Below are positions 3,214 through 39,786 of a stretch of DNA of 64,000 nucleotides, in pieces. Under the pieces are notes generated by a model. The model saw only the letters and a program-made list of their open reading frames with translations. It made no database searches and was not told where the DNA came from. The translations under genes and the position numbers were made by a program. The stretch is from Gaiellaceae bacterium (GTDB lineage Bacteria; Actinomycetota; Thermoleophilia; Gaiellales; Gaiellaceae), in NCBI GenBank assembly GCA_030446625.1, contig JAUJMY010000005.1:62001-126000 (forward strand), written 5' to 3'. The first letter of the stretch is position 1; each line of letters begins with the position of its first letter.

Positions 3214-3678
3214 GTGGTAGATAACCAGCATGCACTCGACGGTCGCCTTGAGGGCGGCTTGCTTCCGGCTCCGTCCGTTGGCGGACCATGGGACACGTCG
3301 CATGTCTGGGGGCGGTACACGGAGCGCGTCTTGGCCAACGACATGCTCCTGCGCGAGATTTACGTCTATCCCGGCGGCCGCACGTCTGTCCACCGGCACG
3401 AGACGCAGCACGAGCTGAACTTCGTCGCCGGCGGGGTGGTTCGGATCAGCCTCGGCGACGATCCGGAGAATCTCGAGGACTACTGGGTCGAGCCCGGCGA
3501 CCACTTCCACGTCCCGCCGCGCGTCTTCCACGCTGTCGGCTTTGAGCGCGCGGAGACCGACACGGGTTGCGCGCGGTTCTACGAGATCGTCTACGAGTAC
3601 TGTTCGCCGCTCGACATCGTCCGCGCGCGCCCCGCCATCGAAGGCGCGCCGACCCGCTGGTTCACGGGCAACAGGTAG
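3214..3678 (+). CDS. Cupin-fold protein, phosphomannose-isomerase-type
   Basis: The 154-aa product from GTG 3214 is a single cupin barrel. Metal ligands are visible as HRHETQHE in the first cupin motif and HVPPRVFH in the second, with a conserved PGD turn between them. An earlier in-frame ATG at 3079 would add a poorly conserved 45-residue extension, so I prefer the GTG. Cupins of this shape include type II mannose-6-phosphate isomerases and small dioxygenases or epimerases. Its position as first gene of the rightward NRPS operon suggests tailoring of a precursor or the product, but the reaction cannot be read from the sequence. Confidence 0.75.
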   Translation: MVDNQHALDGRLEGGLLPAPSVGGPWDTSHVWGRYTERVLANDMLLREIYVYPGGRTSVHRHETQHELNFVAGGVVRISLGDDPENLEDYWVEPGDHFHVPPRVFHAVGFERAETDTGCARFYEIVYEYCSPLDIVRARPAIEGAPTRWFTGNR

Positions 3679-3727
3679 CGCCGCGTATGCTCGCTCGCGC
3701 GCGTGTCGCCGGCGCAGGTCCGCCGAC

Positions 3728-6700: not shown

Positions 6701-7348
6701 GCCGCCGAAACGACGCTCGCCGAGATCTGGGCGCGCCTCCTCGGTGTCGAAGCGGTTGGCGTCGACGACGACTTCTTCGAGCTCGGCGGCGACTCGCTGG
6801 TGGCGACGCACGTTGCCGCGCACGCCGCCGACCTCGGCTTGCCGCTCAGCCCGCTCGACATCTTCCGCGAGCGCACGATCAGCGCTATCTACGCTGCCCG
6901 CGAGGCGCGAGGCGTCGCGCGAGTCGCAGGGCCGCAGCGTCCGGTGGTCGGTGTGTCGATGCATGGCTTGGTGGAGGGGCAGGTCGATCGGCGGCCGGCT
7001 GCTCTGGCCGTGCGTGATGGCGTGGATGGTGGCCTCTCGTTTGCGGGGTTGGAGGAGCGCGCGAATCGGTTGGCGTGGGTGTTGCGTGCGCGGGGGTCGG
7101 GCCGGAGTCGGTTGTGGTGTGTGTGCGGGACGGTCGATGGGCTTGGTGGTGGCGTTGTTGGGGGTGTTGAAGGCGGGTGCTGCATATCTGCCGTTGGATC
7201 CCGTAGTACCGCTGGAGCGGTTGCGGTGGATGGTGAGGGATGCCCGCGTGCGGGTCGTGGTGTGCGAGGAAGGGTCCCCGGCGGCGTTTGGCTCAGGCGT
7301 GCTGCGGGTGGTGGTCAGCCGTACTGGCGAGGTGCCCTCAGCGCCTAA
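3728..7348 (+). CDS. NRPS part 1: C-A(Pro-like)-PCP followed by the start of a second A domain
   Basis: Domains in order: condensation (about residues 35-450, HHSCWDAWS at 162, Ala replacing the usual Gly), adenylation (about 490-985, [20 protein letters not shown]) and carrier (FFELGGDSL, phosphopantetheine serine near residue 1023). The pocket residues read DVQFVAHVVK, very close to the classical proline code DVQLIAHVVK. After the carrier the frame enters a second A domain directly, with no condensation domain, and is lost near 7090 by small indels, ending artificially at 7348. TTG 3728 is the preferred start; GTG 3764 is possible. Without the frameshifts this, the next and the third CDS would be one ~2,700-residue synthetase (3728-11907). 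Confidence 0.8.
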
Positions 7349-7446
7349 GTCGGAGCGGCCGGGGTGGTGGTGCGTCCGGGAACCTGGCGTACGTGATCTA
7401 CACGTCGGGCTCGACCGGCCGCCCGAAGGGAGTTGCGATCACGCAT
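6932..7446 (+). repeat. Long repeat R1, copy 1 (A-domain N-terminal third)
   Basis: 515 bases, nearly identical to 10054-10569, covering the A-domain from its N-terminus to the P-loop and the following PKGVAITH. Relative to copy 2 it has two extra bases near 7088, lacks one G near 7112, lacks one C near 7272 and lacks one G near 7370. Its codons are GT-rich, unlike the GCG/CTC/CGC-rich flanks. Confidence 0.9.
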
Positions 7447-10400
7447 CGCGGCGTCTGCAACCTCCTTGACGTCCAGTCCCGCGAGTTCGGCTTGGCGAGC
7501 GACGACCGCGTGCTGCAGTTCGCGTCGATCGGGTTCGACGCCTCCGTCTATGAAATCTTCGGCGCCCTTGGCGCCGGAGCGTGCGTCGAGCTTGCGCCCG
7601 CGCCCCGGCTCCTCGCCGGGCAGGCGCTGGTCGACCTCCTCCGCGAGCGCGGGATCACCGTCGCGTTGCTGCCGCCGACGGTGCTGCGAACGCTTCCCGC
7701 CGCCAAACTTCCCGCGTTGCGCGTCCTCGCTTCCGGCGGTGAGGAGTGCTCGCCGGAAATCGTCGCGCGGTGGGCGTTTGGTCGCCGCTTCCTCAACCTC
7801 TATGGCCCGACGGAGAACAGCGTCGTAGCAACCTGGGCGGAGTGCGATCCAGGTGCCGCGCGTGTCCCGATCGGGCGGCCGCTGCCGAACGTCGAGGCCC
7901 ACGTGCTCGACGAGGAGCTGCGCCCGGTCGAGCCGGGCGCGGTCGGGGAGCTCTTCCTCGGTGGTGCCGGACTCGCCCGCGGCTACCTCGGCGCGCCGGC
8001 GCTCACCGCCGACCGGTTTGTGCCGGATGTGTCGGCCGACGGCCGTCGCGTCTACAAGACCGGCGACCGCGTCCGGCTGTCACCCGATGGTCAGCTCGAG
8101 TACCTCGGACGTACGGACGACCAAGTGAAGATCCGTGGGATCCGGATCGAGATAGGAGAGGTGGCGGCCGCCCTCCGCGAGCACTCGGCGATCGTCGACG
8201 CGTTTGCGAGTGTCGATGACGGTGACGCGCGGCGCCGGCTGATCGCATACGTCGTCGTCGCAGGCGCGCCACCAACGGCGCGTGAGCTCCGCCGGTTCCT
8301 CGCTCACCGCCTGCCCGACGCGATGCTGCCGGCCGCCTTCCTCGCCGTTCCGGAGCTGCCGCTTACGACGAGCGGGAAGGTCGACCGCGAGCGGCTCGCC
8401 GCCCTTTCGCCCGAGCTGCGCCTCCCGTTCGCGACCGTCCACGACGCGCCGCGGACTCCGGCGGAACGCGTGATGGCAGACGTGTGGGCGGAGGTGCTCG
8501 ATTTCGAGGGCGTCGGCGTGAACGACAACTTCTTCGAGCTCGGCGGCGACTCAATCTTGAGCATCCGCGTCGTCGCCTGCGCTCGAGACAAAGGGCTCGT
8601 GCTCACGCCACAGGACGTTTTTGACCATCCCGTCCTCGTCGACCTCGCCGCGGCGGCACGACCGATTTCGCCGACTAACCGTCGGGCAGGAGCCGGCGAT
8701 CGACCGGCTCGCAGCGACGCCACGGCGCCGACGGATCAGTACCCGCTCTCTCCCATGCAGCTCGGGATGCTGTTCCATACCCTCGCCGAGCCCGAGCGAG
8801 GGGCATACGTCGATCAGACGCTCTTCCGGTTTCGCGGTCGCGTAGACGAGGAGGCGCTCGTCCGCGCGTGGCGCGCGCTGCTTCACAGGCATCCTGCGCT
8901 CCGCAGCAGGTTCGAATGGGAGGATCTCGACGAGCCGCAGCAGGTCGTCGAGGCAAGCGTTGACGTGCCGGTGACGATGCTCGACTGGCGTCGTCTGGCA
9001 CCGGCGGCGCGCGTGGAGCGGCTGCGGGAGCTGGTCACCACGGAGCGCGAGCGCGGCCTCGACCTGAGGAAAGCGCCTGTGATGCGTTTGACGCTCATCC
9101 GCCTCGAGGACGAGGCGTCCGCGCTCGTCTGGACGACGCACCACATGCTGCTCGACGGCTGGAGTCTCGGGTTGCTGCAGCGCGAGCTCGCGCAGTTGTA
9201 CTCGGGCGAAGATCCGGGGCCGCCGCCGGCGCTGGCGTATGGCGACTACGTCCGTTGGCTTCGCGCGCGTGACGGCGACGACGCGCGAGGCTTCTGGCGC
9301 TCGGCGCTCGCGGGGTTCCGGCGCGCGACACCGCTCCCGAGCGGAGGCGGCGACGGCGGAGCCGCCGCCGGGGACGTCGGGTACGTCACCGTGACGCTCG
9401 CCGAGCCGATGACGGCGTCCCTGGCGCGGGTCGCCCGCGAGCTACGCGTGACGGTGAACACGCTCGTGCAGGGCGCGTGGGCGCTGCTACTCGCGGCCGT
9501 GACCGGCGAGGACGACGTCATCTTCGGCGTTACCGTCACCGGGCGCCCCGCCGAACTTGCCGGCGCTGAGTCGACCATCGGGCTGTTCATCAACACGCTG
9601 CCGGCGCGCATTCGGCTCGAAAAAGCGGCGAAGGCGCGCGAGTGGCTGACCCGGATCCAGGATGATCAGTCGGCTGCTCGCCGCCACGAGCACTTCCCGC
9701 TGTGGGAGGTCAAGCGGGTGTCATCGATCCCGTCGGACGCGCCGCTGTTCGAGACACTGCTCGTCTTCGAGAGCGCGCCGTCGGAGCCGGCACCGTTCCG
9801 CGGCCTCCAGAGCGTCGAGGTCGAAGGTGTCGGGCGGACGAATTACCCACTCTCGATCCTCGTGCGGCGGGGAGAGCGGCTCGAGGCGACGTTCGGGTAC
9901 GACCGAAGGCGGCTATCGCGCGTCGACGTGGAGCGCTTCGCCGCGCACTGGCGCAGACTGCTCGAGCAGATCGCCGCGAACCCCGACGCGCGTGTCGCCG
10001 TTTTGGCCGCCAACGCCGAGCTCGCGGCGGAGCCGCCCGTCGACGCCGTCGGTCCGCAGCGTCCGGTGGTCGGTGTGTCGATGCATGGCTTGGTGGAGGG
10101 GCAGGTCGATCGGCGGCCGGCTGCTCTGGCCGTGCGTGATGGCGTGGATGGTGGCCTCTCGTTTGCGGGGTTGGAGGAGCGCGCGAATCGGTTGGCGTGG
10201 GTGTTGCGCGCGGGGGTCGGGCCGGAGTCGGTTGTGGGTGTGTGTGCGGGACGGTCGATGGGCTTGGTGGTGGCGTTGTTGGGGGTGTTGAAGGCGGGTG
10301 CTGCATATCTGCCGTTGGATCCCGTAGTACCGCTGGAGCGGTTGCGGTGGATGGTGAGGGATGCCCGCGTGCGGGTCGTGGTGTGCGAGGAAGCGGTCCC

Positions 10401-10470
10401 CGGCGGCGTTTGGCTCAGGCGTGCTGCGGGTGGTGGTCAGCCGTACTGGCGAGGTGCCCTCAGCGCCTAA
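7240..10470 (+). CDS. NRPS part 2: A (core)-PCP-C and start of a third A domain
   Basis: Recognisable synthetase sequence begins at [13 protein letters not shown] (about 7381). It holds the rest of the second A domain ([25 protein letters not shown]), a carrier with FFELGGDSI (serine codon 8551-8553), and a condensation domain opening with [13 protein letters not shown] and carrying HHMLLDGWS near 9139. The N-terminus of a third A domain follows. The A-domain pocket reads approximately DAYLAGLVVK, for which I recognise no standard amino acid. The frame is lost near 10400 where copy 2 of repeat R1 has an extra C in a CCCC run, and it terminates at TAA 10470. The listed start is only the first start-like codon in this open frame; the natural protein is probably continuous with part 1. 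Confidence 0.75.
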
Positions 10471-10569
10471 GTCGGAGCGGCCGGGGTGGTGGTGCGTCCG
10501 GGGAACCTGGCGTACGTGATCTACACGTCGGGCTCGACCGGCCGCCCGAAGGGAGTTGCGATCACGCAT
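10054..10569 (+). repeat. Long repeat R1, copy 2 (A-domain N-terminal third)
   Basis: 516 bases matching 6932-7446 apart from a few 1-2 nt indels. It begins at PQRPVVG immediately after the C domain and ends at PKGVAITH, after which the two A domains diverge completely in the substrate-pocket region. Two reading-frame breaks lie inside it (about 10400 and 10485), both at C or G runs. Confidence 0.9.
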
Positions 10570-11907
10570 GCGGCGGCCGTGAACTTCATCACGGTCGCCG
10601 CCGACGCCTATGCGCTCGGGCCGGCGGACTGCGTTCTGCAGGTCGCGTCGCCGACGTTCGACGCGCACGTCGAGGAAATCTTTCCCGTCCTTGCCCGCGG
10701 AGGCACCGTCGTCCAGTTGCCGACGGAGACGGACATCCTCGATCTTGCGCCGGAGACGGTGGAGCGTCTCGGCGTAGGGGTTCTCCCGCTGCCGACGGCG
10801 CTGTGGTCGCGCCTCGTCCGCGAACCCCGCGCGCCGGGGACGTTCTTCCCGAGCGTGCACTTCGTCGTGATCGGCGGCGAAGAGGCGCGCGCGGCGGACC
10901 TCCGGCGCTGGCGTCTGGCGGCGCCTCGGTCGCAGCGTCTGCTGAACACATACGGCCCAACGGAGGCGACCGTCGTCGCCACGGTCGCCGACGTCACAGA
11001 CGACGCGGGCGAGCTCGTTCCAATCGGTCGCCCCGTACCGAACACGTCGGCGTACGTTCTCGACGACGAGTTGCGGCCGGTGCCACCAGGCGTTGCGGGC
11101 GAGCTCTACCTCGGCGGCGCGCAGGTGGGGCGCGGCTACCTGCGGCGTCCGGGGTTGACGGCGGCGCGCTTCGTGCCGGATCCCTTCGGGGAGCTCGCGG
11201 GTGGACGGTTGTACCGGACGGGCGATGTGGCGCGTCTGCGGTCGGACGGGGCGTTGGAGTTCCTGGGGCGTCGGGACGACCAGGTGAAGGTGCGCGGGTT
11301 TCGGGTGGAGCTCGGCGAAATTGAGGCGGCGCTCGCTGAGCACGAGGCGGTCGCGGAGGCGACCGTGGACGCGCGCGGCACTCCGGACGAGACGCAGCTC
11401 GTCGCCTATTACGTGCCGCGTCGCGATGGCGAATCGGTGGACGTTCGCGAGTTCCTCGCCGCCCGGCTGCCGCCGTACGCGGTTCCCGCCGCGTTTGTCG
11501 CCGTCGGCCGGCTTCCCCGGCTGCCGAGCGGGAAGGTCGACCGCGCTGCACTGCCCGAGCCCGGCGCGCCGAAGGCGCCCGACGGGATCGCTAACGTGGT
11601 CGAGCCGAGGACGGAGCTCGAACGCGCGATCGCTGCCGTATGGCGCGACGTGCTGGGGCACGAGCGGATCGGCGTCCACGACGACTTCTTCGAAGCGGGC
11701 GGCCACTCGCTGCTCGCCACGCAGGTCGTGTCCCGGCTCCGCTCGCGTCTCGGGCTCGCCGTCCGCGTCCGCTCGATTTTCGAGCACCGGACGATCGCCG
11801 GGCTCGCGACCGCAGTCGCTGCGGAGGCCGCTGCACCGCCGACCGCGGCGATCGCGCGGTTGCCGCGCGTTGCCACGACGCCGCAGACTTCGAAATCCGA
11901 TGCATGA
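10486..11907 (+). CDS. NRPS part 3: A (core)-PCP, end of first synthetase
   Basis: 473 residues starting in frame just before [13 protein letters not shown]. It contains the A-domain core, A8 ([12 protein letters not shown]), the A10 lysine (PSGKVDR) and a carrier domain [11 protein letters not shown] (serine codon 11707-11709). There is no thioesterase, so the chain must pass to the next synthetase. The pocket reads approximately DAELVGTVVK; a Glu at the third position occurs in some codes for basic residues, but I do not assign a substrate. From VPIGRP to LAEHEAV it is identical to the serine-activating A domain of the terminal synthetase (repeat R2). The stop overlaps the MbtH start by 8 bases. 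Confidence 0.8.
11016..11351 (+). repeat. Repeat R2, copy 1 (A-domain A6-A8 segment)
   Basis: 336 bases that appear identical to 15192-15527. The repeat encodes [14 protein letters not shown] through LAEHEAV, the conserved second half of the adenylation domain. Sequence on both sides differs between the two A domains. Confidence 0.92.
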
Positions 11908-12127
11908 TCGAGGAGGGATCGCGATAGACGACTCCGAGCGCATCTTCGCTGTCGTCGTCAACGACGAAGAGCAGTACTCGATCTGGCCGGTGGATCGCGA
12001 GCTGCCGCTCGGTTGGCGCGAGGATGGCACGCGCGGGTCGAAGGACGACTGCCTCTCGCACATCGAGGAGGTCTGGACGGACATGCGTCCACTCAGCCTG
12101 CGGCGCGCGATGGAGGGCGACGAGTAG
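11900..12127 (+). CDS. MbtH-like protein
   Basis: A 75-aa protein from ATG 11900 (MHDRGG), overlapping the end of the synthetase gene. It has the family signature almost complete: [19 protein letters not shown], a [14 protein letters not shown] block and a final SLRRAM. The usual SLWP is SIWP here. MbtH proteins bind adenylation domains and are needed for their solubility or activity, so this one probably serves the synthetases on either side. Gene order and overlaps place it in one rightward operon with the synthetases and the phosphopantetheinyl transferase. Confidence 0.93.
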
Positions 12128-12133
12128 GACTCC

Positions 12134-12868
12134 GTGGAGGCGAGCGCCGCAAGCACGCGAGTCGCGCCGAGCGCCGTTGACGTATGGCGCGTCGACACCA
12201 CCGACGGCGCGGCCGCACCGCGCACGACGCTTGCCGTAGACGAGCTGGAGCGCGCGGCGCGCTTACGGTCTGAGCAGGACCGATCACGCTTTGTCGCGGC
12301 CCACGTCGCGTTGCGCGAGATCCTCAGCTGCTACGCCGGCGGGCCGCCGGCGTTACTACGGTTCGCGCAGGCGCCCGCGGGCAAGCCGTTCCTCTGCGGG
12401 GTCGACCGCCCGCGCTTCAATCTCTCGCACACCGGCAACGTCGCGCTAATCGCTGTTGCCGATCGCGAGGTGGGCGTCGATGTCGAGCGCGTCGTCACAC
12501 TCGACGTGCGCGCGCTTGCGCCCCTCGTCCTGGGCTGCGACGAGCGCGCAGTGATCGGCCGTTGCCGCCCGGACGAGCGGGGGCGGACGTTTCTCCGGCT
12601 ATGGACGCTTAAGGAAGCGTTCGCGAAGGCGCGCGGGATCGGCCTCGGCTTCGACCTCGCCTCTGTCGACGTCTCGCCGGCCCTCACGCCTCCGACGGCA
12701 GGCTGGCTCGCCATCGACGACACGTACGTGCGCGAGCTGTCGGTCGGTACGGCATACGTTGCCGCTGTCGCGGTGCTCGAGGCGCCGGCGCGCGTGGTGC
12801 TGCGTCGCTGGCCCTCGCGAGCCGGCAATGCGCCGCCGCGCCATCGGCCGCCGAGTGGGCTGTCGTGA
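12134..12868 (+). CDS. 4'-phosphopantetheinyl transferase, Sfp type
   Basis: 244 residues from GTG 12134. The magnesium and CoA-binding motifs are clear: FNLSHTGN near residue 95, VGVDVE near 113 and [12 protein letters not shown] near 157. Size and two-motif layout fit the Sfp subgroup, which transfers phosphopantetheine from CoA to the serine of carrier domains. It lies 6 bases after mbtH and its TGA overlaps the GTG of the terminal synthetase, so it is translationally linked to its likely substrates. It would prime the five carrier domains visible in this cluster. Confidence 0.92.
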
Positions 12869-15800
12869 CGCTTCCGGCCGGTGCCCCGGAGCTCGTTGCG
12901 CGCGCGTCGTACGAACAGGAGCGGCTGTGGCTTCTCGCGGAGCTGGCGGGCGACCGGCCGCTCCACAACCTGCCGGTCGCCTTCCGGCTGCGCGGCCGGC
13001 TCGACACGCGCGCGCTGACGCGCGCGCTCGAGCAAGTCGTCGGGCGACACGAGGCGCTCCGGACGACGCTCCGATTCGGCGACCGAGAACTGGTTCAGGT
13101 TGTTCACCGTCCGGCAGCGCCTGCGCTCGACGTCGTCGACCTGCGACGCGCCGCCGGCGACGCCGAGCGTGCCACGAAGCGCCTTTGTGAGGACGCGCTA
13201 GCGACACCGTTCCGGCTCGCGCACGAGCTGCCGCTTCGAGGCACGCTCGTGCGCCTCCGTGACGACGACCACGTGCTCATGCTTGTCCTGCACCACTCGT
13301 GCTTCGACGGCTGGTCAGCGGCGATCCTCCGGCGGGAGCTCAGCGCGTTCTACGCCGCCGAGGTCGGCCCGGGCGTGCCCGATCTTCCCGAGCTGCCGAT
13401 CCAGTACGCCGACTTCGCGGAATGGCAGCGGGCGGCGACGGACAGCGGCGTGTATGACGACCAGCTGGATTACTGGCGGGGCCGTCTGTCGGGCGCGCCG
13501 CCCCTCTTGGACCTGCCCGCCGACCGACCCCGCCCGCGGCTCGCGTCGCACCGCGGGGCGGAGCTGCCGTTCAATCTCGACGCCGCGTCTGTCGCCGCCA
13601 TTCGGGCGGCCGCCGACCAGGCGGATGCCACGCTATTCATGGTCCTCCTCGCGGCGTTCGCAGGGCTGCTCGCGCGACACGCGTCGGCCGACGACATCGT
13701 GATCGGGACCCCTGTCGCCGGGCGCACGCGTCCGGAGGTCGAGAACTTGATCGGCTTGTTCGTGAACACCCTCGCCCTCCGGATCGACCTGTCCGGAGAC
13801 CCAACGTTCGCGGAGGTCGTCGCGCGTGTCCGCGACACGGCGCTAGATGCGTACGACAACCAGGACATCCCGTTCCACCGCGTCCTCCGAGCGCTCGACC
13901 CGACTCGGGCGCTGAGCCACATGCCGGTGTTTCAGGTCACCTTCGGCTTCGAGAACGCGCGATCGAGCCGGGTTGCGCTCCCTGGTCTGATTGTCGAGGA
14001 TTTTCCAGTCCTCGGCGTCACGGCACCATTCGATCTCGGGGCCTCCGTGCGTGACGGGCAAGACGGCTTGACCGGGACGGTTGTCTACGCAACAGACCTC
14101 TTCGACGCTCCCACCGTCAACGGGCTGGTCGCGCGCCTCCGGACGCTTCTACTGCGCGCGACGGCGGACCCAACCGCGCGGCTGCGCGCAATCGAGCTTG
14201 TGCCCGCCTCGGAACTTGACGCAGTCCTTTCACACGGGCGCGGCGCGCCGCACCGCGAGTCGCGGGAGGTGCTACGCGATCTGCTGGAGGATCAGGCGCA
14301 GCGGACACCCGATGCGACCGCCGTCGTCTTCGAGAACGAGGTCGTGTCATACGGGGAGCTGCACGCGCGCGCCAACGGCCTTGCGCACGATCTGCGCGCC
14401 GCCGGCGCTGAACCCGAGCGCATAGTCGCGATCTGCGTGGAGCGATCGGTGGAGCTCGTCGTCGCGGTCCTCGCGACCATCAAGGCTGGCGCCGCGTTCT
14501 TGCCGCTTGACGCCGATTACCCGGACGAGCGGCTGCAGTTCATGCTCGACGACGCGCAGCCCGCGCTGCTCGTGACGACGGAAGCGCTGCGGCGCCGACT
14601 CCGATCGTCGGCGCCGAGCGTCCTCATGAACGCCGCCCAGGCGAAGCGGCGCGACGCTCCGCCCGACGCGCACGTCCTGGCCGAGCACCTCGCGTACGTC
14701 ATCTACACATCCGGATCGACGGGGCGGCCTAAGGGATCGATGAACGAGCAGCGCGGCATCGTCAATCGCCTGCTGTGGATCGCGGACCTGCTCGGGCTCG
14801 ACGCGCGCGACCGTGTGCTGCACAAGACGCCGGTCGGGTTCGACGTCTCCGTGTGGGAGCTGCTGTGGCCACTGATCCGTGGAGCGACGGTGCTCGTCGC
14901 TCCACCGGGGGCGCACCGCGACCCCGAGCGCGTGGCCGCCGTCATCGCCGAGCAACGCGCCTCGGTCGCACACTTCGTGCCGTCGCTGCTGCGGGTGTTT
15001 CTCGAAACCGCATCGGTCGCTCGCTGCGGAACGCTCCGCACGGTCGTCTGCAGCGGCGAGGCGCTCGCACCTGACCTGGTCGGACGGTTCCGCTCTCGCC
15101 TCGGATGCGACCTCTACAACCTCTACGGCCCGACGGAGGCCGCGATCGACGTCACGCTGTGGCGCTGCGGCGCGTCGGAGACGCTGTCCAACGTTCCAAT
15201 CGGTCGCCCCGTACCGAACACGTCGGCGTACGTTCTCGACGACGAGTTGCGGCCGGTGCCACCAGGCGTTGCGGGCGAGCTCTACCTCGGCGGCGCGCAG
15301 GTGGGGCGCGGCTACCTGCGGCGTCCGGGGTTGACGGCGGCGCGCTTCGTGCCGGATCCCTTCGGGGAGCTCGCGGGTGGACGGTTGTACCGGACGGGCG
15401 ATGTGGCGCGTCTGCGGTCGGACGGGGCGTTGGAGTTCCTGGGGCGTCGGGACGACCAGGTGAAGGTGCGCGGGTTTCGGGTGGAGCTCGGCGAAATTGA
15501 GGCGGCGCTCGCTGAGCACGAGGCGGTGAGCGCGGCGGCAGCGGCCTGCGTCAAGGGCGCCGACGGCGAGAACATCATCGTAGCGCTCGTCGTGCCGTCC
15601 GACGTCGCGGCACCGGCCCGGAACCTCGCGAGGCTCGTCCGGGAGGGGCGGGTGAGTGAATCGCGCCTCGTGACGCTCGCGACGGGACTCTGTGTGGAGG
15701 CGATCAGCGCCGCTGAGGCCGCTTTCCTCGACGACGAGATCTTCGCGCGCCGCGCGTACCTACAGCGCGGGATCGTCGTGCCGGACAACGCGCACGTCTT

Positions 15801-17640
15801 CGACGTGGGCGCGAACATCGGCCTGTTCTCGCTTCAGGCTGCCCTCGCGGCTAGCCGCGTACGCGTGTACGCGTTCGAGCCCGTACCGACCGTGGCGGAC
15901 GCCCTCCGCCGTAAGCTCGCGCTACACGAGGTTGACGCCGTCGTCCGCGACTGCGCCGTCGGCGCGCGGGACGGGACAACGGAGATCACGTTCTTCCCGC
16001 GGAACTCGCTTTTGAGCGGCCGGTCTACCGAACTCGAGCTCCGCGCCGCCGCGGTCAGGCGCGTCCTCGCTGCGGACGACGAGGCCGCTGAGCTCCTGCT
16101 CGAGGAGATTCTACGGGGAGAAACGCTCGCGCGGCCGATGCGCACGATCTCGTCGCTCGTCCGCGAGTACGCAGTCGAGGCGATCGATCTCCTAAAGATC
16201 GACGTCGAGGGCGACGAGGCGGATGTGCTGTCCGGAATCAACGAGCAGGACTGGGAGAAGATCCGGCAAGTCGTTGTCGAGACACACGGCGACGGCGCGC
16301 TCGTGAACGCCGCCAAATCCCTGAGAGACCGCGGCTTCGAGGTCGAGATCGCCGAGGACGAGGTTCTTCGCGACGTGGGTCTCGCGACAGTGTTCGCACG
16401 CCGAGCACGCCTCGCACCCGGGCGGCCGGGTGCGAGGCGATGGTCGAGCGGGGCCGCGCTCGTCGCCGAACTCCGGCGGCACCTCCGGACGCGGCTCCCG
16501 GAGCAGATGGTCGCGTCGCGGATTCGCGTCGTCGACCAGCTTCCGCTCTCCCCCAACGGGAAGCTCGACCGAACGGCGCTCGACGTGCCCGCCGCACCGC
16601 CCGCGACGCGCTCGTCGACGCGCGCGCGGACGCCGACGGAGCAGGCGCTCGCGGAGCTCTGGGCGGAGCTGCTTGGCGTCGACGTCGGCGTCGACGACAG
16701 CTTCTTCGACTGCGGTGGGCACTCGCTGCTGGCGGCGCGGCTAGTGACCCGGATCGAGCGCGAGTGGGGAATCGCGATCCCACTGGCCGCCGTCTTCGAG
16801 CATCCTACGCCCGCGGAGTTTGCCACGGTGCTTGCGCGTCCTCGCGGCGCGTCGCACCGACGGCTGCTCACGCTCGCGGGCGAAGGAAACAGCCGAGCGG
16901 TTGTATGCATTCGGTCCTCGGGCGGCGGCATCGCGTGCTACATCCCGCTCGCTCGCCGACTAAACGCAACGGCGCGCGTTCTCGCGATTGCCGCCGACGC
17001 GGCTGACCCTCCCTCGGTTCCTGCGGTCGCGGAGGTGTACGCGGAGCTGCTACGGCGGGAGGGCTTCGGCAACGCCGTCGCCGTTATCGGCTGGTCCGCC
17101 GCCGGAACCATCGCGCTCGAGACGGCGCGCCGACTCGGCGCCGGCCGCGATATCAGCGTGATTCTCGTGGACACGCGCTTGCGGCTGACGTCGGCGCCGT
17201 CGGTGAGCGCGCTGCTAACGCGCGAGTTCATTGCGCACGTGGCGGCCACGCTTCGCGTTGCGCCGACGGAGCTGCGGCCGCGAGCGGTCGCCGGCGGCGA
17301 TGCTGACCTCGACGCACTCGCGGCGGCACTCGTGCAACGCGGGCTCGTCGCCGCCGACGACGCGCGGGCCTGGGTCGAGAGCCGCTACGAGCTGTTCCGC
17401 GCCGACGTCGACGCCGCGTCTGCCTACCGCCCTGCGCCGTTCTCAGGTCCAGCGACCTTGGTCATCCCAGATAGCGATCCGTCTGCAACCGAGGGGCTCG
17501 ACTCGTGGCGCGCCGTCGCGTCGCGCCTCGAGGTGGTGCGAGCGACCGGAGACCATTTCTCGTTGCTCGAAGAGCCTGGCGTGGATGACGTTGCCGCGGC
17601 TGTCCGCGCGGTGGCTCGACCGCCGAAGGTGCGATCGTAG
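12865..17640 (+). CDS. Terminal NRPS: C-A(Ser) with embedded FkbM methyltransferase-PCP-TE
   Basis: 1,591 residues, uninterrupted. The C domain has HHSCFDGWS at 143. The A domain has [11 protein letters not shown] near 613 and YGPTEAA; its pocket DVWHVSLIDK differs by one conservative residue from the classical serine code DVWHLSLIDK. Between A8 ([10 protein letters not shown], ~870) and A10 (NGKLDR, Lys1233) lies a ~270-residue FkbM-family (Methyltransf_21) domain with the SAM motif VFDVGANIG at 978-986 and [14 protein letters not shown] near 1110. The carrier serine is ~1287. A thioesterase follows with nucleophile GWSAAG (Ser ~1411; GxSxA rather than GxSxG) and GDHFSLL (His ~1564). It probably adds serine, perhaps methylated by the insert, and releases the chain. 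Confidence 0.9.
15192..15527 (+). repeat. Repeat R2, copy 2
   Basis: 336 bases matching 11016-11351. It ends about 70 bases before the FkbM insertion begins. Confidence 0.92.
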
Positions 17641-24852: not shown

Positions 24853-25149
24853 CTACGCGCCAGTCAGCCGGTCATACAGTTCGTCGCGGAGCTTCGGGTC
24901 GTTGTTGATCCGCTCCTGAACGACCGCTTGGCGAAACTCGGGGAAGTAATCCGGAGGAAGGTCGAGCACTGATGCGACCCGCCGGACGAGGTCCGCGCTG
25001 GGTGACTTGTAGTCAGCGCGCCGCATTACGCGCGACAAGTGTGACGGGTTAACGCCGACGAGCTGCGCAAGCTCGCGCAAGCTGAGCACCCGCTCATCGA
25101 GAAGCCGCCGCAGCTCCTCCACGAATGGCCGATCTGTGCGCTCCGGCAT
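24853..25149 (-). CDS. XRE-family (Cro/CI-type) repressor
   Basis: 98 residues from ATG 25149. A helix-turn-helix occupies residues ~20-55 (LSLRELAQLVGVNPSHLSRV), followed by a second helical stretch with LDLPPDYFPEFR, a common layout for XRE proteins of mobile elements. It is transcribed away from an excisionase/integrase pair, with a 29-bp palindrome 50 bases upstream of its start. The arrangement suggests it represses its own promoter and the excision/integration genes. Confidence 0.85.
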   Translation of the reverse strand: MPERTDRPFVEELRRLLDERVLSLRELAQLVGVNPSHLSRVMRRADYKSPSADLVRRVASVLDLPPDYFPEFRQAVVQERINNDPKLRDELYDRLTGA

Positions 25150-25198
25150 CGCGGCGAGTATGTCGGACGCGGCCGCAGAGGTCGTCGCGCCGTGGTAG

Positions 25199-25227
25199 TG
25201 TCCACATGGTCAGTGACCATATGGACA
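25199..25227. promoter_or_regulatory. Palindromic operator between XRE repressor and excisionase/integrase genes
   Basis: Left arm TGTCCACATGGTCA (25199-25212) and right arm TGACCATATGGACA (25214-25227) are inverted repeats with one mismatch around a single central G. The site sits between the divergent XRE and excisionase genes, a natural place for XRE binding and control of both directions. Confidence 0.75.
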
Positions 25228-25282
25228 TAAAGGTGATGCGGCCCTGACTGAGCGACTGCTGACGACGCGTGACGTCTCGGTC

Positions 25283-25495
25283 ATGCTTGCGATCTCTAGC
25301 GACGCGGTGCTTCGGCGGTGGCGCGCCGGAGAGCTTCCCGGGTTCCGACTCTCGTCGAAGGTCCTTCGGTTCCGGGAATCAGAAGTACACGCGTGGTTGG
25401 AGGAATGCCGACACGGCCCACGTCCGCGCCATGCGGCAACGCGCCAGCCGCCTCGGCTCGTACGTGCACCCGTCGAAACGTTCGATGCCAGCTAG
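25283..25495 (+). CDS. Excisionase-like MerR/AlpA-type winged-helix protein
   Basis: The recognisable domain begins upstream of the first ATG, at LLTTRDVSVMLAISSDAV, which implies a non-standard start near 25244-25260 or a truncated N-terminus; from ATG 25283 the product is 70 aa. LRRWRAGELPGFRLSSKVLR, followed by FRESEVHAWLEE, is the classic excisionase/helix-turn-helix pattern of phage and island control genes. Its 3' end overlaps the integrase start by 11 bases, so the two are probably co-translated. It likely acts as a recombination directionality factor or targeting HTH; DNA contacts are not known. Confidence 0.7.
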   Translation: MLAISSDAVLRRWRAGELPGFRLSSKVLRFRESEVHAWLEECRHGPRPRHAATRQPPRLVRAPVETFDAS

Positions 25496-26585
25496 GCAGC
25501 GCGGGTGGGTGCGGAAGCGTCAGGGTGGATGGCAAGCGTGCTGGCGCGAAGGCGCGCGTCAGCGGACCGGGCCGCGCCTTTTCGCAACGAAGACCGAGGC
25601 GAAGGACTGGCTCAGCGAGCGCCTGTCCGCTGTGCACGCACCGTCCCCGAGCGTTACCTTCGCCGACCACGTTGAGCGCTACCTCCGCCTCCATGCTTCG
25701 TCAGTGGAGCCTTCGACGATCAAGACGCTTCGTGAGCGGCTGGGCGCGACGGGCGCGAAAGCGAGTACGCGCCGTCACTACCGAACAGCCATCGAAGCTT
25801 TCGGCGAAGTTCCTCTGAGCGAGGTGGAGGGTCTCGCGTTACAGATCGCCGAATGGCAGGCGACGCTTCCGCCCGGGTACCGGTACGCGATCGTCCGTTC
25901 GTTTCGACAGGTTCTTTCGGCGGCGGTGAGATGGCAGCTCATCCGCGAGAACCCCGCGGTCCGAGCCGGGCTGAACCCGGAGCCGCGAAAGCCGGAGGTC
26001 GCTTTCTTCCCTGCTCTGGCGGACGTTGATCGTCTCGCTGCCGAGTTACCACCCGCGTTCGCTGCCATACCGGTCTTCTGTGTTGAGACGGGGCTCCGCC
26101 CGTCCGAGTGGATCGCGCTCGAGCGAAAGCACGTCGACCGCGATGCGCGCGTCGTGAAGGTTCGGCAGTCGTTCGTCCGCGGCCGGGTCAGCGAGTACGG
26201 GAAGACGGCGCGGTCAAGGCGCGACGTTCCCTTGACCGAACGTGCTGTCGCCGCCCTGGACTCGTTGCCGCGGCGTCTCGACACGCCGCGCATCTTCGCC
26301 TCGGCGACAGCTGCTCATCTCGACCTCGGCAACTGGCGCCGGCGCGAATGGCGTCCCGCTCTCATCGCCGCGGGACTCGATGAAAAGCTGACGCCGTATT
26401 CGATGCGCCATACATATGCGAGCTTTGCCCTCGACGCCGGTGTCAGCATCTTCGAGCTGTCGCGGGTGATGGGGACGTCGGTGCGGGTCATCGACGCGAC
26501 GTACGGCCATCTCGTGCGTGATTCGCTCGACCGCGTCCGTGCGGCGCTGGAAGCGCGCGCTGCGCGCGACACACACACGCGATAA
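25485..26585 (+). CDS. Tyrosine recombinase (island integrase)
   Basis: 366 residues from ATG 25485 (MPARQRGWVRKRQGG). The N-terminal ~60 residues are a basic arm-binding/AP2-like segment, the middle a SAM-like core-binding domain, and the C-terminal half the catalytic domain: first Arg in TGLRPSEW, a lysine in GKTARSRRDV, the second Arg in YSMRHTYASF and nucleophile Tyr in ATYGHLV. The HxxR motif has Tyr instead of His at its first position. The gene ends 76 bases before a 51-bp copy of the tRNA-Asp 3' half, as expected for an integrase next to its attachment site. Overlap with the excisionase-like gene and the XRE operator upstream imply coordinated control. Confidence 0.92.
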   Translation: MPARQRGWVRKRQGGWQACWREGARQRTGPRLFATKTEAKDWLSERLSAVHAPSPSVTFADHVERYLRLHASSVEPSTIKTLRERLGATGAKASTRRHYRTAIEAFGEVPLSEVEGLALQIAEWQATLPPGYRYAIVRSFRQVLSAAVRWQLIRENPAVRAGLNPEPRKPEVAFFPALADVDRLAAELPPAFAAIPVFCVETGLRPSEWIALERKHVDRDARVVKVRQSFVRGRVSEYGKTARSRRDVPLTERAVAALDSLPRRLDTPRIFASATAAHLDLGNWRRREWRPALIAAGLDEKLTPYSMRHTYASFALDAGVSIFELSRVMGTSVRVIDATYGHLVRDSLDRVRAALEARAARDTHTR

Positions 26586-26661
26586 CACCGTTTGCTGCCC
26601 TGGCGCTGCCCAGGCTGCCCGTCCGCCGTCGCGGGAATACCGCGAGGAGCAGCGCAGACAG

Positions 26662-26712
26662 GAGACGGGAGCGACGGGACTCGAACCCGCGACCTCCGGC
26701 GTGACAGGCCGG
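26662..26712 (-). repeat. 51-bp attachment-site copy: 3' half of tRNA-Asp
   Basis: Identical over 51 bases to 29909-29959 inside and just beyond the intact tRNA-Asp. It covers the T-arm, variable loop and anticodon region and stops at the 5' side of the anticodon stem. It is the duplicated att core left by site-specific integration. Confidence 0.9.
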
Positions 26713-26960: not shown

Positions 26961-27149
26961 ATGCCTCGTACGTACGACATGAGTCGACGCGCGGCTGCGC
27001 GCGAGGAGACGCCGCGGCGGATCGTGGAGGCAACGGCGAAGCTGCACGGGGAGAGAGGGGTACGGCGGCAGCCGATCGTCTGCCGCTGCGGCAGCAGCGC
27101 CGTGGGGAGAGCGCCAGCGAGCCCGTGTGATCTTTTTAGCCACGGCTAA
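26961..27149 (+). pseudogene. Truncated TetR-family regulator remnant
   Basis: From ATG 26961 the translation MPRTYDMSRRAAAREETPRR then IVEATAKLHGERGV matches the start of TetR/AcrR repressors, up to the first helix of the DNA-binding domain. Beyond about 27065 the frame becomes Cys/Arg-rich with no TetR pattern and stops at 27149, just before the PepSY operon operator. Only ~35 of ~190 residues remain, so it is a fragment. A T5 run immediately precedes the ATG. Confidence 0.6.
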
Positions 27150-27150
27150 A
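27135..27150. promoter_or_regulatory. Perfect palindrome upstream of PepSY operon (possible metal-regulator site)
   Basis: TTTAGCC-AC-GGCTAAA is a perfect 7-bp inverted repeat 50 bases before the first gene of the membrane operon. Its AT-rich ends and TTTAG/CTAAA half-sites recall DtxR/MntR-type operators, though it is not the exact consensus I know. The binding protein is not identified. Confidence 0.55.
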
Positions 27151-27200: not shown

Positions 27201-27410
27201 ATGTCGACGAGATACCGATCGCAGCAGGCCGCACAGCAAACCGAATCGCCCGGCGTCACGATCAGCCCCGAGTCGTCCTCGACGGATCCGGCGAACGCGG
27301 TCCTGCCGGCGCTGTCGTGGCGGGTCCGCCTCGTCGGCCTCGCCGCAGCCGTTGCGTTGGCGTGGTCGTTCGCGTACGCGTTCAGCTTCCTCGCCTGGGT
27401 GGCGGCGTGA
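27201..27410 (+). CDS. Small single-pass membrane protein
   Basis: 69 residues with a strong ribosome-binding site (AAGAGGGGG) before ATG 27201. The N-terminal ~40 residues are polar and Ser/Pro-rich; the C-terminus is one transmembrane helix (LVGLAAAVALAWSFAYAFSF). Its TGA overlaps the GTG of the PepSY protein. It is probably a subunit or assembly partner of that protein; I know no named family. Confidence 0.65.
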   Translation: MSTRYRSQQAAQQTESPGVTISPESSSTDPANAVLPALSWRVRLVGLAAAVALAWSFAYAFSFLAWVAA

Positions 27411-28576
27411 CAGAGCTCCTAGACGTCCGCGATACCGAGGAGGACCCGGACAAGGAGGTCCGGTCGCGTTCGCCGGAGCCACAGGCGGGCACGCGCGGGG
27501 CGAGGCGGCGCTGGGGCAAGGGCGGCTCGCTGGTCGTCGACGTGCACAACGTGCTGGGTCTTCTCGCGGCCGTGGCAATCGTCGTCGTCTCGGCGACCGG
27601 CGTGCTGTTGAACCACCTCGAGTTCTTCGGGATCACGCGGCCGGCGCCGGCGGCGGCGGAGCAGCGAGCGCCACTGGCCGACGTTCTCTCGGTTCCCGAG
27701 ATCGTCGAGGCGGCTCAGGCCGCCGAAGTGCGTTCCCGCGCTGGTGGTGTGGGAGAGCCGGCCGCGCTCGACCGGGCGACGTGGCGTCCGGGCAAGGGCG
27801 TCGTCGACGTCAGGCTCGACGGCGATCCGGTCACGTCCGTGTTCGTCGACGATACGACTGCGGAGGTGCTCGACCAGCTCGAGCGCCACGACCTAAGCGT
27901 GACCGCCGCCCACTCGGGTGAGCTGATCGACAAACCGTGGGTGATCCTGTCCGATCTCGTCGCGCTCGTGCTGATCATCAGCGTCATCACCGGCGTGACC
28001 GTCTGGGTACGGCGCGTCAAGCGCCGCAGGCGGCTCGTCGGCGCCCGCGCCGGGGGCTCGAAGTGGATCCGCGCGAACTGGTGGTTTCACCTCGTCGGCG
28101 GCCTGACCGCATCCGGCTACCTCGTCGTGATGAGTGTGACGGGAATCCTGTTGAACCACAAGCAGCCGCTCGGGTTCATGGACGCCAAGCCGGAGCTCCC
28201 CGAACGGGGGGCCGACTTCCGCCCGCTTCCGGTCGGCGACATGGTCGCGTCGGCGATCGCGTTCCGGGCATCAGCGAAGCTTGGCACCGAGAACGTGAAG
28301 TCGATCGACTACCGCCCAGACGGCTACGCGAAGGTCCGCTTCGACGACGACGACTACGAGGTCATCGTCGACGCCGCCGACGGTTCGGTCGAGAAGGCGT
28401 CGCGACGCTGGGATGTCTGGATCGAGGACCTGCATAGCGGACTGCTGCTCGGGTCCAGGGGCTGGTTGGTCGCCGACATCTCCGCCGTCATCGCCATCCT
28501 CCTCGCGATCAATGGGGCGTACCTCTGGACGCGGCCAGCGTGGCGAGCGCGCGACGCCCGACAGAAAGGAGCATGA
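27407..28576 (+). CDS. PepSY-associated transmembrane protein (iron-reductase-like)
   Basis: 389 residues from GTG 27407. Membrane helices include LVVDVHNVLGLLAAVAIVVV with a conserved His, VILSDLVALVLIISVITGV, an N-W-W-F-H-L-V-G-G helix and VADISAVIAILLAINGAYLW. Between them lie two PepSY-like extracytoplasmic modules (VVDVRLDGDPVTSVFVDD and YAKVRFDDDDYEVIVD). Proteins of this architecture (PiuB/PepSY_TM) are linked to iron-siderophore reduction or uptake, with membrane histidines as possible haem ligands. It is the middle gene of a three-gene operon behind a palindromic operator, which fits metal-responsive control but does not prove it. Confidence 0.8.
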   Translation: MTELLDVRDTEEDPDKEVRSRSPEPQAGTRGARRRWGKGGSLVVDVHNVLGLLAAVAIVVVSATGVLLNHLEFFGITRPAPAAAEQRAPLADVLSVPEIVEAAQAAEVRSRAGGVGEPAALDRATWRPGKGVVDVRLDGDPVTSVFVDDTTAEVLDQLERHDLSVTAAHSGELIDKPWVILSDLVALVLIISVITGVTVWVRRVKRRRRLVGARAGGSKWIRANWWFHLVGGLTASGYLVVMSVTGILLNHKQPLGFMDAKPELPERGADFRPLPVGDMVASAIAFRASAKLGTENVKSIDYRPDGYAKVRFDDDDYEVIVDAADGSVEKASRRWDVWIEDLHSGLLLGSRGWLVADISAVIAILLAINGAYLWTRPAWRARDARQKGA

Positions 28577-29035
28577 ATGGCGACGATCTCAGAGGCTGTC
28601 ATGAGCCACAAGCCCCGGCAGCGCCGTCTGATCGTTGCGCAGGTCCACGTCAGCGCTGCGCTGCTGCTCGCGGCGGCGTTGCTGTGGAACGCCGCCGAGG
28701 AGCTCGATGCGCTCGGTCGCTGGGAGCTCGCGTTCATCCTCGTCGTCGCAGCCGGCTTGGCGCTCGTCCACGCGACGCTACCGTGGTTGCTACCCGCCCT
28801 CACCCCGCGCCGCCAACGCACAGGGATCTGGCAGGCCCTGATACTCGCGGCGATCCCCGCCGCCGCCACAACCACGCTGATCGGCTTCTGGGCCGTCGGG
28901 GCGTGCCAGCTGCTGCTGCTCGCCGGCGTGGTCGCCGAGCTCGGCGCGCGCCGACGCATTCTCCTGTTGCTCTGGGTGCTCGGTACGACGGCGTACGCGA
29001 TCACGCTTTGGCACCTCGACTCCCCGCTGGTGTAA
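28577..29035 (+). CDS. Four-helix membrane protein, last gene of PepSY operon
   Basis: 152 residues, ATG 28577 directly after the PepSY stop and preceded by AAAGGAG. Four hydrophobic helices are visible (VHVSAALLLAAALLW, AFILVVAAGLALVHATLPWL, ALILAAIPAAATTTLIGFWA, ILLLLWVLGTTAYAITLW). No catalytic motif. It likely forms a membrane complex with the two upstream products. Confidence 0.65.
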   Translation: MATISEAVMSHKPRQRRLIVAQVHVSAALLLAAALLWNAAEELDALGRWELAFILVVAAGLALVHATLPWLLPALTPRRQRTGIWQALILAAIPAAATTTLIGFWAVGACQLLLLAGVVAELGARRRILLLLWVLGTTAYAITLWHLDSPLV

Positions 29036-29404: not shown

Positions 29405-29850
29405 CGGGATGCGAGGGAAACGTCGTCGCGTCTTTCTCTGCGCACCCGCCCTGCAGGCGTTGCGTGAACAGCTCCTGGCGCGGCGTCCGAACCCGCAAGG
29501 GTTCGTCTTCCCCTCGCCGCGCTCGGACACTGTGTGGAACTCGGGACAACTTCCGCGCGGACGTGTTCGCGAAGGCGGTCACGCGCGCCTGCGGCCAAGC
29601 CGAAGCCGCCTGGCGCGCCGACCTCCAGCGGCTCGAGTTCCACCATCTGCGGCACACCTTCGCATCGCTGATGATCGTGGCGGGAGCGAACCCACTCCAG
29701 CTCGCGGAGGCACTCGGACATACGGACAAGACACGACGGCGTGATCCGACGCTTGTATGGAGCGCTACGGCCACCTCTTTCCGGGCTCGACGCGCGAGGC
29801 CGCCCCGGCGCTTGATCGACACTTGAAGGCGTCGCGTCGTGACCGGTGCG
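29405..29850 (+). pseudogene. Decayed tyrosine integrase, C-terminal half
   Basis: Catalytic-domain motifs are spread over three frames: KRRRVFLCAPALQALREQLL, then FHHLRHTFASLMIVAGANPL (HxxR intact), then ERYGHLFPGSTREAA with the nucleophile Tyr. Small indels near 29550 and 29735 separate the frames and the N-terminal half is absent. It lies directly beside the tRNA-Asp 3' end, where the integrase of a tRNA-targeting island is expected. Confidence 0.75.
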
Positions 29851-29908
29851 GCACAGCGCGGGATGCGGGACTCCGCGTCGCCGTAGCTGAAACGAAATCC
29901 CTGCAATA

Positions 29909-29959
29909 GAGACGGGAGCGACGGGACTCGAACCCGCGACCTCCGGCGTGACAGGCCGG
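29909..29959 (-). repeat. 51-bp attachment-site copy at intact tRNA-Asp
   Basis: Identical to 26662-26712. It includes the 3' half of the tRNA and 4 bases beyond it. Confidence 0.9.
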
Positions 29960-29986
29960 CACTCTAACCAACTGAGCTACGCCCCC
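29913..29986 (-). tRNA. tRNA-Asp (GUC)
   Basis: On the minus strand the gene starts GGGGGCGTAGCTCAG. The anticodon stem CCGGC/GCCGG encloses the loop CTGTCAC (anticodon GTC), and the T-arm carries GGTTCGAGTCC. The acceptor stem GGGGGCG pairs with CGCTCCC with one G-U. CCA is not encoded. Its 3' half is duplicated at 26662-26712, marking it as an island integration site. Confidence 0.95.
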
Positions 29987-38182: not shown

Positions 38183-39325
38183 GTGGGTCCTTCCTGGCGG
38201 TCAGGTGCGGCTGCGCTCCTGGTGGGGCTGGCGGCCGCCACCGCAATCGGCGCGGATCGCGGCGCGCGCGCGGCGCCGGCGGCCGGGATCGCGTGCCGCA
38301 CGGCGCAGATCGGCGTCCTCGCGCCGCTCACCGGCGGCGCGGCGAGGGTCGGCCGCGAGCAGCTCGACTTCGCGCGCTTCGCGCTGCTCACGCACGGACC
38401 GACGAGCCGGTTCAAGCCGACGCTCGTGAGCGCGGACACGCGCCTCTCGCCGCCGAAGGCCGCCGCCGCCGCGGCGCACCTCGGGCGGAACGACCGGATC
38501 CTCGTCCTCGTTGGGCCCGCGATGAGCCGGGAGGCGCTCGCCGCCGCACCGGAGCTCGCGCGGCGCGGGCTGGCCTTCGTCTCGGCGTCCGCACCCCGCG
38601 CCGCGCTCACGCGCAGCCCAGTCCGTGGCTTCTTCCGCGTGATCCCGAGCGAGACCGCACAGGCTCCGACGATCGCCGCGTATCTGCGCGCCGAGCTCGG
38701 CGCGCGTCGGGTGCTCGTCCTCGATGACGGGAGCGCGTACGGCGTGCCGCTGGCGGATGCGATCCAGGCGAACCTGCGCGGCCGCGGCGCCGAGGTGACG
38801 CGCGAGGCCGCTGCTCCGGACGAGAGTGACCTCGCCTCTCTCGTCGCGCACGTTCGACCGACGACGGACGCGGTCGTGCTCGCATGGCAGGCGGCGGCGC
38901 GCGCGACGGCGTTCGCACAGCAACTCCGGACGAGCGGCAGGCGAGCGAGCGTCTTCGGGACCGATGCCCTCGACGTGCCCGAGTTCAGGCCGAACTCCGC
39001 GTACGTCTCGGCGCTGCTGCCGGACGTCCGGGAGCTGCAGGCGAACGAGGCGTTCGTGAAGCGGTACCGCGCGCGCTTCGGCGACTTCGAGAGCAGGTTC
39101 GCCCCCCCGATGTACGTCGCGACGCAGGTCGCGCTCACCGCCGTTCGCAACGCGTGCCGGGACGGGCGCGCCAGCCGCGCGGAGGTTCGGGCGGCGCTCC
39201 GGCGTACGTCGCTGCCGCGGACGATCCTCGGCTGGCCCGTCAGGTTCACGCCGCGCGGGGACCTGCGCAACGCTCGCTTCTCGGTCTACCGGATCGAGAA
39301 CGGCGTCAAGCGCCTCGTCCGCTAG
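38183..39325 (+). CDS. Periplasmic-binding protein, branched-chain amino acid (LivJ) type
   Basis: 380 residues from GTG 38183 with a signal peptide (AALLVGLAAATAIGADRGA). The Peripla_BP_6 fold is indicated by IGVLAPLTGGAARVGREQL at the mature N-terminus, LVGPAMSREALAAAP, FFRVIPSETAQAP, VLVLDDGSAYGVPLADAI and VFGTDALDVPEF. No Liv permease or ATPase genes are adjacent, so it is an orphan binding protein. Its last 20 bases overlap the 3' end of the convergent MarR gene. Confidence 0.85.
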   Translation: MGPSWRSGAAALLVGLAAATAIGADRGARAAPAAGIACRTAQIGVLAPLTGGAARVGREQLDFARFALLTHGPTSRFKPTLVSADTRLSPPKAAAAAAHLGRNDRILVLVGPAMSREALAAAPELARRGLAFVSASAPRAALTRSPVRGFFRVIPSETAQAPTIAAYLRAELGARRVLVLDDGSAYGVPLADAIQANLRGRGAEVTREAAAPDESDLASLVAHVRPTTDAVVLAWQAAARATAFAQQLRTSGRRASVFGTDALDVPEFRPNSAYVSALLPDVRELQANEAFVKRYRARFGDFESRFAPPMYVATQVALTAVRNACRDGRASRAEVRAALRRTSLPRTILGWPVRFTPRGDLRNARFSVYRIENGVKRLVR

Positions 39326-39761
39326 CAGCGGTCCGGAGCGCGGCTTCGACGAGCTCCGCCGCCGCCGCGACGACGGCGACGTCGCCCGCATCGAGCCCGC
39401 CGAGGAGGCGGACGAGGGCGTCGATCCGCCGCCGCCGCGCGCGCTGGAGCAGGCGAGTTCCCTTCGTGGTCGCCGCGACGCGGACGCTGCGGCGGTCCGC
39501 GGCGTCCGCCACCCGCCGCACGAGCCCGGCGTCTTCGAGGCCGCTCACGATCCGGCTCGTCGTCGGCGCGCGAACGCCCTCCGCGGCGGCGAGCTCGCCG
39601 AGCGTCAGCGGCCCGGCGAAGACGACGACGGAGAGGGCGGAGAGGCGCGCAGGACCGATGCCGGCTGCCGCGTCCTCCTTCGCCGCGTAGCGGAGGAGAT
39701 GGATCGCCGCCGAGTGGATCTTGTCCGCAGCCTCCTCGATCGTTGCGTTTCGCGTCGGCAT
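39306..39761 (-). CDS. MarR-family transcriptional regulator
   Basis: 151 residues from ATG 39761. The winged helix spans residues ~50-110: LTLGELAAAEGVRAPTTSRI, then VRRVADAADRRSVRVAATTK with the DRR wing. An 8-bp-arm palindrome lies between its start and that of the divergent ankyrin gene, only 47 bases away, so it probably represses both. Confidence 0.88.
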   Translation of the reverse strand: MPTRNATIEEAADKIHSAAIHLLRYAAKEDAAAGIGPARLSALSVVVFAGPLTLGELAAAEGVRAPTTSRIVSGLEDAGLVRRVADAADRRSVRVAATTKGTRLLQRARRRRIDALVRLLGGLDAGDVAVVAAAAELVEAALRTAASGRGA

Positions 39762-39769: not shown

Positions 39770-39786
39770 TTAGTTAGCCTAACTAA
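39770..39786. promoter_or_regulatory. Perfect palindromic operator between MarR and ankyrin genes
   Basis: TTAGTTAGCCTAACTAA has perfect 8-bp arms around one central C. It is AT-rich in GC-rich surroundings and lies within 10 bases of the MarR start and 22 bases of the ankyrin start, the usual position of MarR sites. Confidence 0.8.

Follow-up and report, generated by a model that had tools for sequence, protein, structure and literature searches.

The DtxR/IdeR iron box of Actinobacteria is an AT-rich palindrome with TTAG/CTAA arms. Control of a PepSY gene by a manganese-responsive member of the DtxR family is described for piuB of Corynebacterium diphtheriae. There, piuB is reported to be repressed by MntR at high manganese and to be bound in its upstream region by MntR, as seen in EMSA, and also by DtxR; it is called the only C. 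diphtheriae gene known to answer to both regulators (PMC13001254). In Deinococcus radiodurans, the metal-dependent repressor DR2539 is reported to respond both to Mn(II) and to Fe(II), and to need an inverted repeat before mntH (PMC3327659). As for the proteins themselves, the PepSY_TM proteins FoxB and CrpH are described as extracytoplasmic reductases that depend on haem, or as candidates for this role, with histidine pairs on each side of the membrane (PMC13038864).

Here we describe a palindrome in front of a PepSY operon in a Gaiellaceae bacterium. The window, that is, the whole stretch of DNA that was analysed, has 64,000 nucleotides. It is highly probable, judged from the sequence, that the palindrome is the box of an MntR-type regulator of the DtxR family, which would repress the PepSY operon when manganese or iron is plentiful. 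The features concerned are the following.

27135..27150, no strand: palindromic operator TTTAGCCACGGCTAAA, predicted MntR/DtxR-family box (exact sequence; recurrence before metal genes of the class; matrix score 27.5 bits)
27201..27410, +: protein of 69 aa with a single TM-like segment (ORF; no Pfam or NCBIfam match; hydropathy)
27407..28576, +: PepSY_TM protein, 389 aa, four TM-like segments, paired histidines at the membrane borders (PF03929, E=6.2e-33; hydropathy)
28577..29035, +: multi-TM protein of 152 aa without a family match above cut-off (ORF; hydropathy; best Pfam match DUF6356, E=0.098, below cut-off)

The closest precedent is the MntR control of piuB, a PepSY gene under a manganese-responsive DtxR-family repressor; the likeness is one of gene and regulator family. 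However, piuB is also bound by DtxR, whereas no DtxR/IdeR-type box was found here in 21 genomes, and the present operon includes two additional small membrane genes and is flanked by tRNA repeats. With the DtxR/IdeR box, the site shares the form of an AT-rich palindrome, the TTAG/CTAA arms and, by prediction, a DtxR-family reader, but its spacing and core differ from the consensus. DR2539 is similar in being a DtxR-family repressor that acts on an inverted repeat, and the PDB chain 8pvt, which we take to be DR2539, is the top match of a regulator encoded in our genome; this comparison concerns the regulators. The target of DR2539 is mntH, whereas no Nramp gene was detected at E<=1e-20 in our genome, which is 92.9% complete. 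The PepSY_TM protein is FoxB-like in its PF03929 domain, its four TM-like segments and the histidines at both ends of TM1 and TM3. It differs from FoxB and CrpH in that phmmer found no similar chain in the PDB (best E=0.64, unrelated) and in that its partner proteins match no family.

The palindrome and the PepSY operon

The palindrome consists of two perfect 7-bp arms, TTTAGCC and GGCTAAA, around the 2-bp spacer AC, and the arms do not extend outwards (27134 and 27151 are both T). The ATG at 27201 starts 50 bases after its end. GC content is 37.5% in the 40 bp around the site compared with 70% in the window, and the palindrome is the sole match with up to two mismatches in the 2.7-Mb genome. 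An isolated AT-rich palindrome at promoter distance had been proposed by the earlier note at exactly this position, and the sequence there was confirmed. To estimate chance occurrence, 60 first-order Markov simulations of the window were used. Palindromes of the 7+2+7 shape are nothing unusual: the window has 14, and the simulations gave 17.4 on average. AT-rich ones, in which the inner 7-base arm contains at least four A/T, are rare, with one in the window, namely 27135-27150, against a mean of 0.08 and a largest simulated value of 2. When spacers of 0-8 were allowed, six AT-rich entries at five distinct places were counted against a mean of 1.55. The AT-richness by itself is therefore only mildly unusual, and the argument for an operator is carried by position and recurrence.

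Reading the palindrome as a terminator was rejected: the T-run lies before the stem, the loop would be too short and no terminator was called there. A second AT-rich palindrome of the window, TTAGTTAGCCTAACTAA at 39770-39786, is flanked by two divergent genes, a MarR gene (39306-39761, -) and one of ankyrin-repeat-like type (+). It was rejected as a member of the same system on account of this position and of its score of 11.8 bits with the matrix described below, and is probably a MarR operator.

The start of the PepSY_TM gene overlaps the stop of the preceding 69-aa gene, so that the two are probably co-transcribed. Assignment to PF03929 is clear, with a score of 115.3 bits against a cut-off of 28.8. 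Histidines are found at residues 47, 70, 161, 169, 228, 251 and 343, and all but residue 161 lie at TM borders in a twofold pattern; the predicted structure (pLDDT 51.8) is too poor for placing them. Where the earlier note had spoken of a putative iron-reductase membrane operon, membership of the PepSY_TM family stands, while the iron reductase function is suggested at the level of the family only. The DNA upstream of the palindrome has a decayed appearance. The truncated TetR gene that had been placed there was not confirmed: neither the 34-aa nor the 62-aa piece matched a Pfam family at E<=1, and the 34-aa piece matched no PDB chain at E<=10.

Recurrence upstream of metal genes

To follow the site in the class, the relaxed motif TTTAGNCNNGNCTAAA was searched in 284 genomes of the class, presumably Thermoleophilia, without starting from metal genes, and the loci were then typed by TBLASTN with reference proteins. 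It was found at 29 places in 26 genomes and in 18 of 112 genera, compared with nine places in eight genomes for the reversed control. There are 28 places outside our own genome, and 27 of them directly precede a metal gene, which is Nramp/MntH in 12 cases, a multicopper oxidase in ten (nine loci), a ZnuA-type ABC system in four and a DtxR-family regulator in one. The remaining place (L083) has no metal gene. The 28 places include related genomes and do not represent 28 independent events. The co-occurrence with metal genes, whose absence the earlier note had named among the things that would refute its guess, was observed, in the form of metal-uptake, multicopper-oxidase or DtxR-family genes behind 27 of 28 places. 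The exact motif was present in six of 399 class genomes, our own among them (reversed control, three places in two genomes). Its five other places are upstream of Nramp genes (L024, L025, L027), of a ZnuA-type ABC operon (L028) and of a multicopper oxidase (L026). Since near-identical sequences precede metal-uptake genes in related bacteria, a site for a metal-sensing repressor is very probable.

Nramp promoters were examined with the best-scoring 30 Nramp loci of a longer match list, which were used for upstream counts, matrix and palindrome census. In the 450 nt upstream, the best motif match had 0, 1, 2, 3 or 4 mismatches in 2, 5, 1, 5 and 4 loci, respectively, and was worse in 13. A motif with up to three mismatches was thus found in 13 of 30 loci, and with up to four in 17 of 30, whereas internal and downstream controls gave 0/30 each at up to four mismatches. 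Shuffles reached up to three mismatches in 0.56% and exactly four in 2.7% of cases. With a matrix built from the 17 upstream sites, 27135-27150 scored 27.5 bits and the next position of the window 11.8, a gap of 15.7 bits; this score is partly circular, because the sites had been picked by their likeness to 27135-27150. For an unbiased census, all 16384 palindromes of the 7+2+7 shape were counted upstream of the same 30 loci. At up to two mismatches, TTTAGGCNNGCCTAAA ranked first (10/30) and TTTAGCCNNGGCTAAA joint third (8/30, control 0), with one GC-rich pattern also above it. At up to three mismatches TTTAGCCNNGGCTAAA was found in 13/30 and ranked 29th, behind GC-rich patterns, several of which were also frequent in the coding control.

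Multicopper oxidases behind the same box were seen at L026, L065, L071-L073, L080, L081, L084 and L085 and in our own genome at G000:C11:50038 (L020, L196). A ZIP-like gene usually follows the oxidase, and TBLASTN detected one in eight of the nine class loci of this kind; one full-length copy scored 21.8 bits with Pfam Zip, below the cut-off of 35.1. Box, multicopper oxidase and ZIP-like gene together look like a conserved oxidase-transporter pair under putative metal regulation.

Outside the class, the picture is different. Among 396 genomes of the phylum the exact motif was found in six, compared with six reversed-control places in four genomes, which is no enrichment. Of four further phylum places that were inspected, L061 and L062 precede metal importers, of the Zip and the ZnuA type respectively, and L059 and L060 have no recognised metal gene nearby. 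A search of genome_contigs gave 107 stretches with the exact 16-mer, against about 120 expected by chance (2 x 257 Gb / 4^16). When all 107 were scanned, two were at tested metal genes, L086 and L103. L086 is a Thermoleophilia record whose ZnuA stretch is 100% identical to that of the class locus L028. At L103:5533-5548, in an Anaerolineae record and hence outside the actinobacterial class, the 16-mer is upstream of an Nramp gene. At L102:1459-1474 in Kutzneria it precedes a gene that is SRPBCC-like by eye, with a similar imperfect palindrome just before, and other regulator families may use the same 16-mer. The 16-mer marks a metal box within this class; elsewhere it is not diagnostic alone, given the chance-level count in genome_contigs, the few metal neighbours and the copy in Kutzneria.

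Regulator genes and alternative readings

A scan of our own genome with WTTAGNCNNGNCTAAW at up to one mismatch gave three places (reversed control, one). The strict 16-mer stands alone at 27135-27150, and both further places are beside DtxR-family genes: C6:117476 is directly upstream of such a gene, and C11:50038 lies between a DtxR-family gene and the multicopper oxidase. The C6 regulator, which is 140 aa long and carries PF01325 and PF02742, has the box directly upstream of its own gene. Its best PDB matches are 8pvt (1.2e-47), 5zr4 (8e-37), ScaR and SloR, whereas DtxR, B. subtilis MntR and IdeR gave much weaker E-values. The PDB title of 8pvt, our presumed DR2539, reads 'Iron dependent repressor, putative'; 5zr4 is presumably MntR of M. 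tuberculosis. GEDYLK and EAERLEH of the C6 protein align with DYLK/EAExLEH of 8pvt, 5zr4, ScaR and SloR, and the protein has the Mn-type metal site, with an Asp near the N-terminus and a Glu instead of Cys in the ExxLEH stretch. These metal-site residues are reported to set the metal choice (PMC3327659). By its sequence, the intact C6 regulator resembles most the manganese-responsive repressors of the DtxR family. The second DtxR-family gene, on C11 (L020:1845-2500), seems to have its N-terminal part in another frame, through a frameshift or an assembly error. Among relatives, six of 12 DtxR-family genes have the motif with up to three mismatches no more than 50 nt before the matched domain (internal control 0/12, shuffles 0.17%). 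The genome also encodes a third member of the DtxR family, which has a FeoA domain (C3), and one Fur-family protein; no site at up to three mismatches was found in the stretches examined for these two genes.

From these observations a mechanism can be proposed. A dimer of the regulator, charged with Mn(II) (or Fe(II)), would bind the palindrome near the promoter and repress the three-gene PepSY operon, which under metal shortage would be expressed. The PepSY_TM protein might then move electrons across the membrane via haems bound by its histidine pairs; the resulting reduction of a metal or metal chelate outside the cytoplasm would aid uptake. The earlier note's guess of a DtxR/MntR-type repressor is supported by the metal or DtxR-family neighbours of 27 of the 28 places in the class and by the relaxed sites beside DtxR-family genes in the genome itself. 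We regard manganese as likelier than iron to be the main signal.

It may be asked whether the site is instead read by an iron-sensing repressor (a DtxR/IdeR-like protein, the C3 DtxR-family protein or Fur), the operon being an ordinary iron-starvation set. PepSY_TM proteins are indeed best known from ferrisiderophore reduction (PMC13038864), both Mn(II) and Fe(II) are reported to act on DR2539, which is presumably the nearest relative (PMC3327659), and candidate iron sensors are present in the genome with C3 and Fur. On the other hand, Nramp genes are the commonest neighbours of the motif, and the stretches examined for the C3 and Fur genes lack the site at up to three mismatches. In addition, the classical iron box, taken as its 19-bp consensus and loosened to TTAGNTTAGSCTAANCTAA with up to two mismatches, had no match in 21 genomes including our own. 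Control by an iron sensor therefore seems unlikely to us, though it retains a real share of the probability.

Recognition of the palindrome by a helix-turn-helix protein of another family (ArsR, TetR or MarR type), perhaps a regulator lost together with the decayed upstream gene, is improbable. The exact 16-mer before the SRPBCC-like gene of Kutzneria shows that the word is no proof of a metal regulator, and the upstream DNA does look decayed; this reading is opposed by the metal or DtxR-family genes at 27 of 28 class places and by the upstream pieces, which have no TetR match. A chance palindrome, or a promoter part without a regulator, is least probable of all and would be quite surprising. 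The window does hold 14 palindromes of the shape, and the count in genome_contigs is close to chance. However, only 0.08 AT-rich ones are expected per window, the site is the sole genome match of its kind and stands 50 bp before the operon start, and it is the top window position under the Nramp-site matrix by 15.7 bits. We therefore retain the MntR-type box as the preferred reading.

The tRNA-Asp repeats and the origin of the operon

The PepSY operon lies between two identical 51-bp repeats of the 3′ part of tRNA-Asp, with the following features around it.

25269..26585, +: tyrosine integrase adjoining the left repeat, outside the repeat pair (Phage_integrase, E=2.4e-11)
26662..26712, no strand: left 51-bp direct repeat, copy of the tRNA-Asp 3′ part, putative attachment site (100% identical to 29909-29959)
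29464..29826, +: C-terminal piece of an integrase, probably from a degraded gene, on the inner side of the right repeat (Phage_integrase profile positions 109-159 of 172, E=7.4e-8)
29909..29959, no strand: right copy of the 51-bp direct repeat, reaching from the tRNA-Asp gene into the DNA next to it (100% identical to the left repeat)
29913..29986, -: tRNA-Asp (gtc) (ARAGORN)

Both an integrase gene and a direct repeat of a tRNA 3′ end, the marks of a tRNA-integrated island, are present. Close homologues of the PepSY protein were sought in 199 class genomes (E<=1e-10), where only the query was found, and in genome_contigs and plasmids, where there were none; 396 phylum genomes gave no relatives at E<=1e-5, with up to four candidates per genome scored among the matches listed. 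A family search found PepSY_TM in two of 149 class genomes, our own included. The other gene (G098) is distant, with 26% identity over 160 aa, and has no site at up to three mismatches within the stretch examined. This lack of close relatives, together with the rarity of the family in the class, suggests that the operon was probably acquired, on what appears to be a mobile island. In BLASTN of the island against plasmids, 77 records were matched, and the best five of the 77 cover 3% of the island, at both tRNA ends. At 24853-26712, an integrase with HTH_17 and XRE-type genes lie by the left tRNA-Asp repeat, and at 29464-29986 the integrase piece lies by the tRNA; these are possibly two elements stacked on a single tRNA-Asp site.

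The kind of operator is already known, and the class regulon and the island-borne PepSY operon are, as far as we have seen, its new members. For an actinobacterial class that has been little studied, the motif provides a concrete candidate operator of manganese/iron control; its predicted regulon comprises MntH, the ZnuA-type ABC system, the multicopper oxidase with its ZIP-like gene, the regulator itself and the PepSY reductase operon. Together with piuB of C. diphtheriae, this points to a possible role of PepSY_TM proteins in the supply of manganese, besides that of iron and copper. The locus may also be an example of a putative mobile island that comes under a host metal regulon. A more speculative idea, which we offer only tentatively and hold to be doubtful, is that the island brought a PepSY reductase into a bacterium without a detected MntH and wired it into the host manganese regulon by means of a perfect copy of the box that recurs across the class. 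If so, reduction by PepSY_TM would serve manganese acquisition, for example by release of manganese from oxidised or chelated forms, and not only that of iron or copper.

Elsewhere in the window, 1288-17640 holds genes of the non-ribosomal peptide synthetase type, with AMP-binding, carrier and adenylation domains. Near-identical stretches are found inside these genes, for example 11016-11315 and 15192-15491 (100%).
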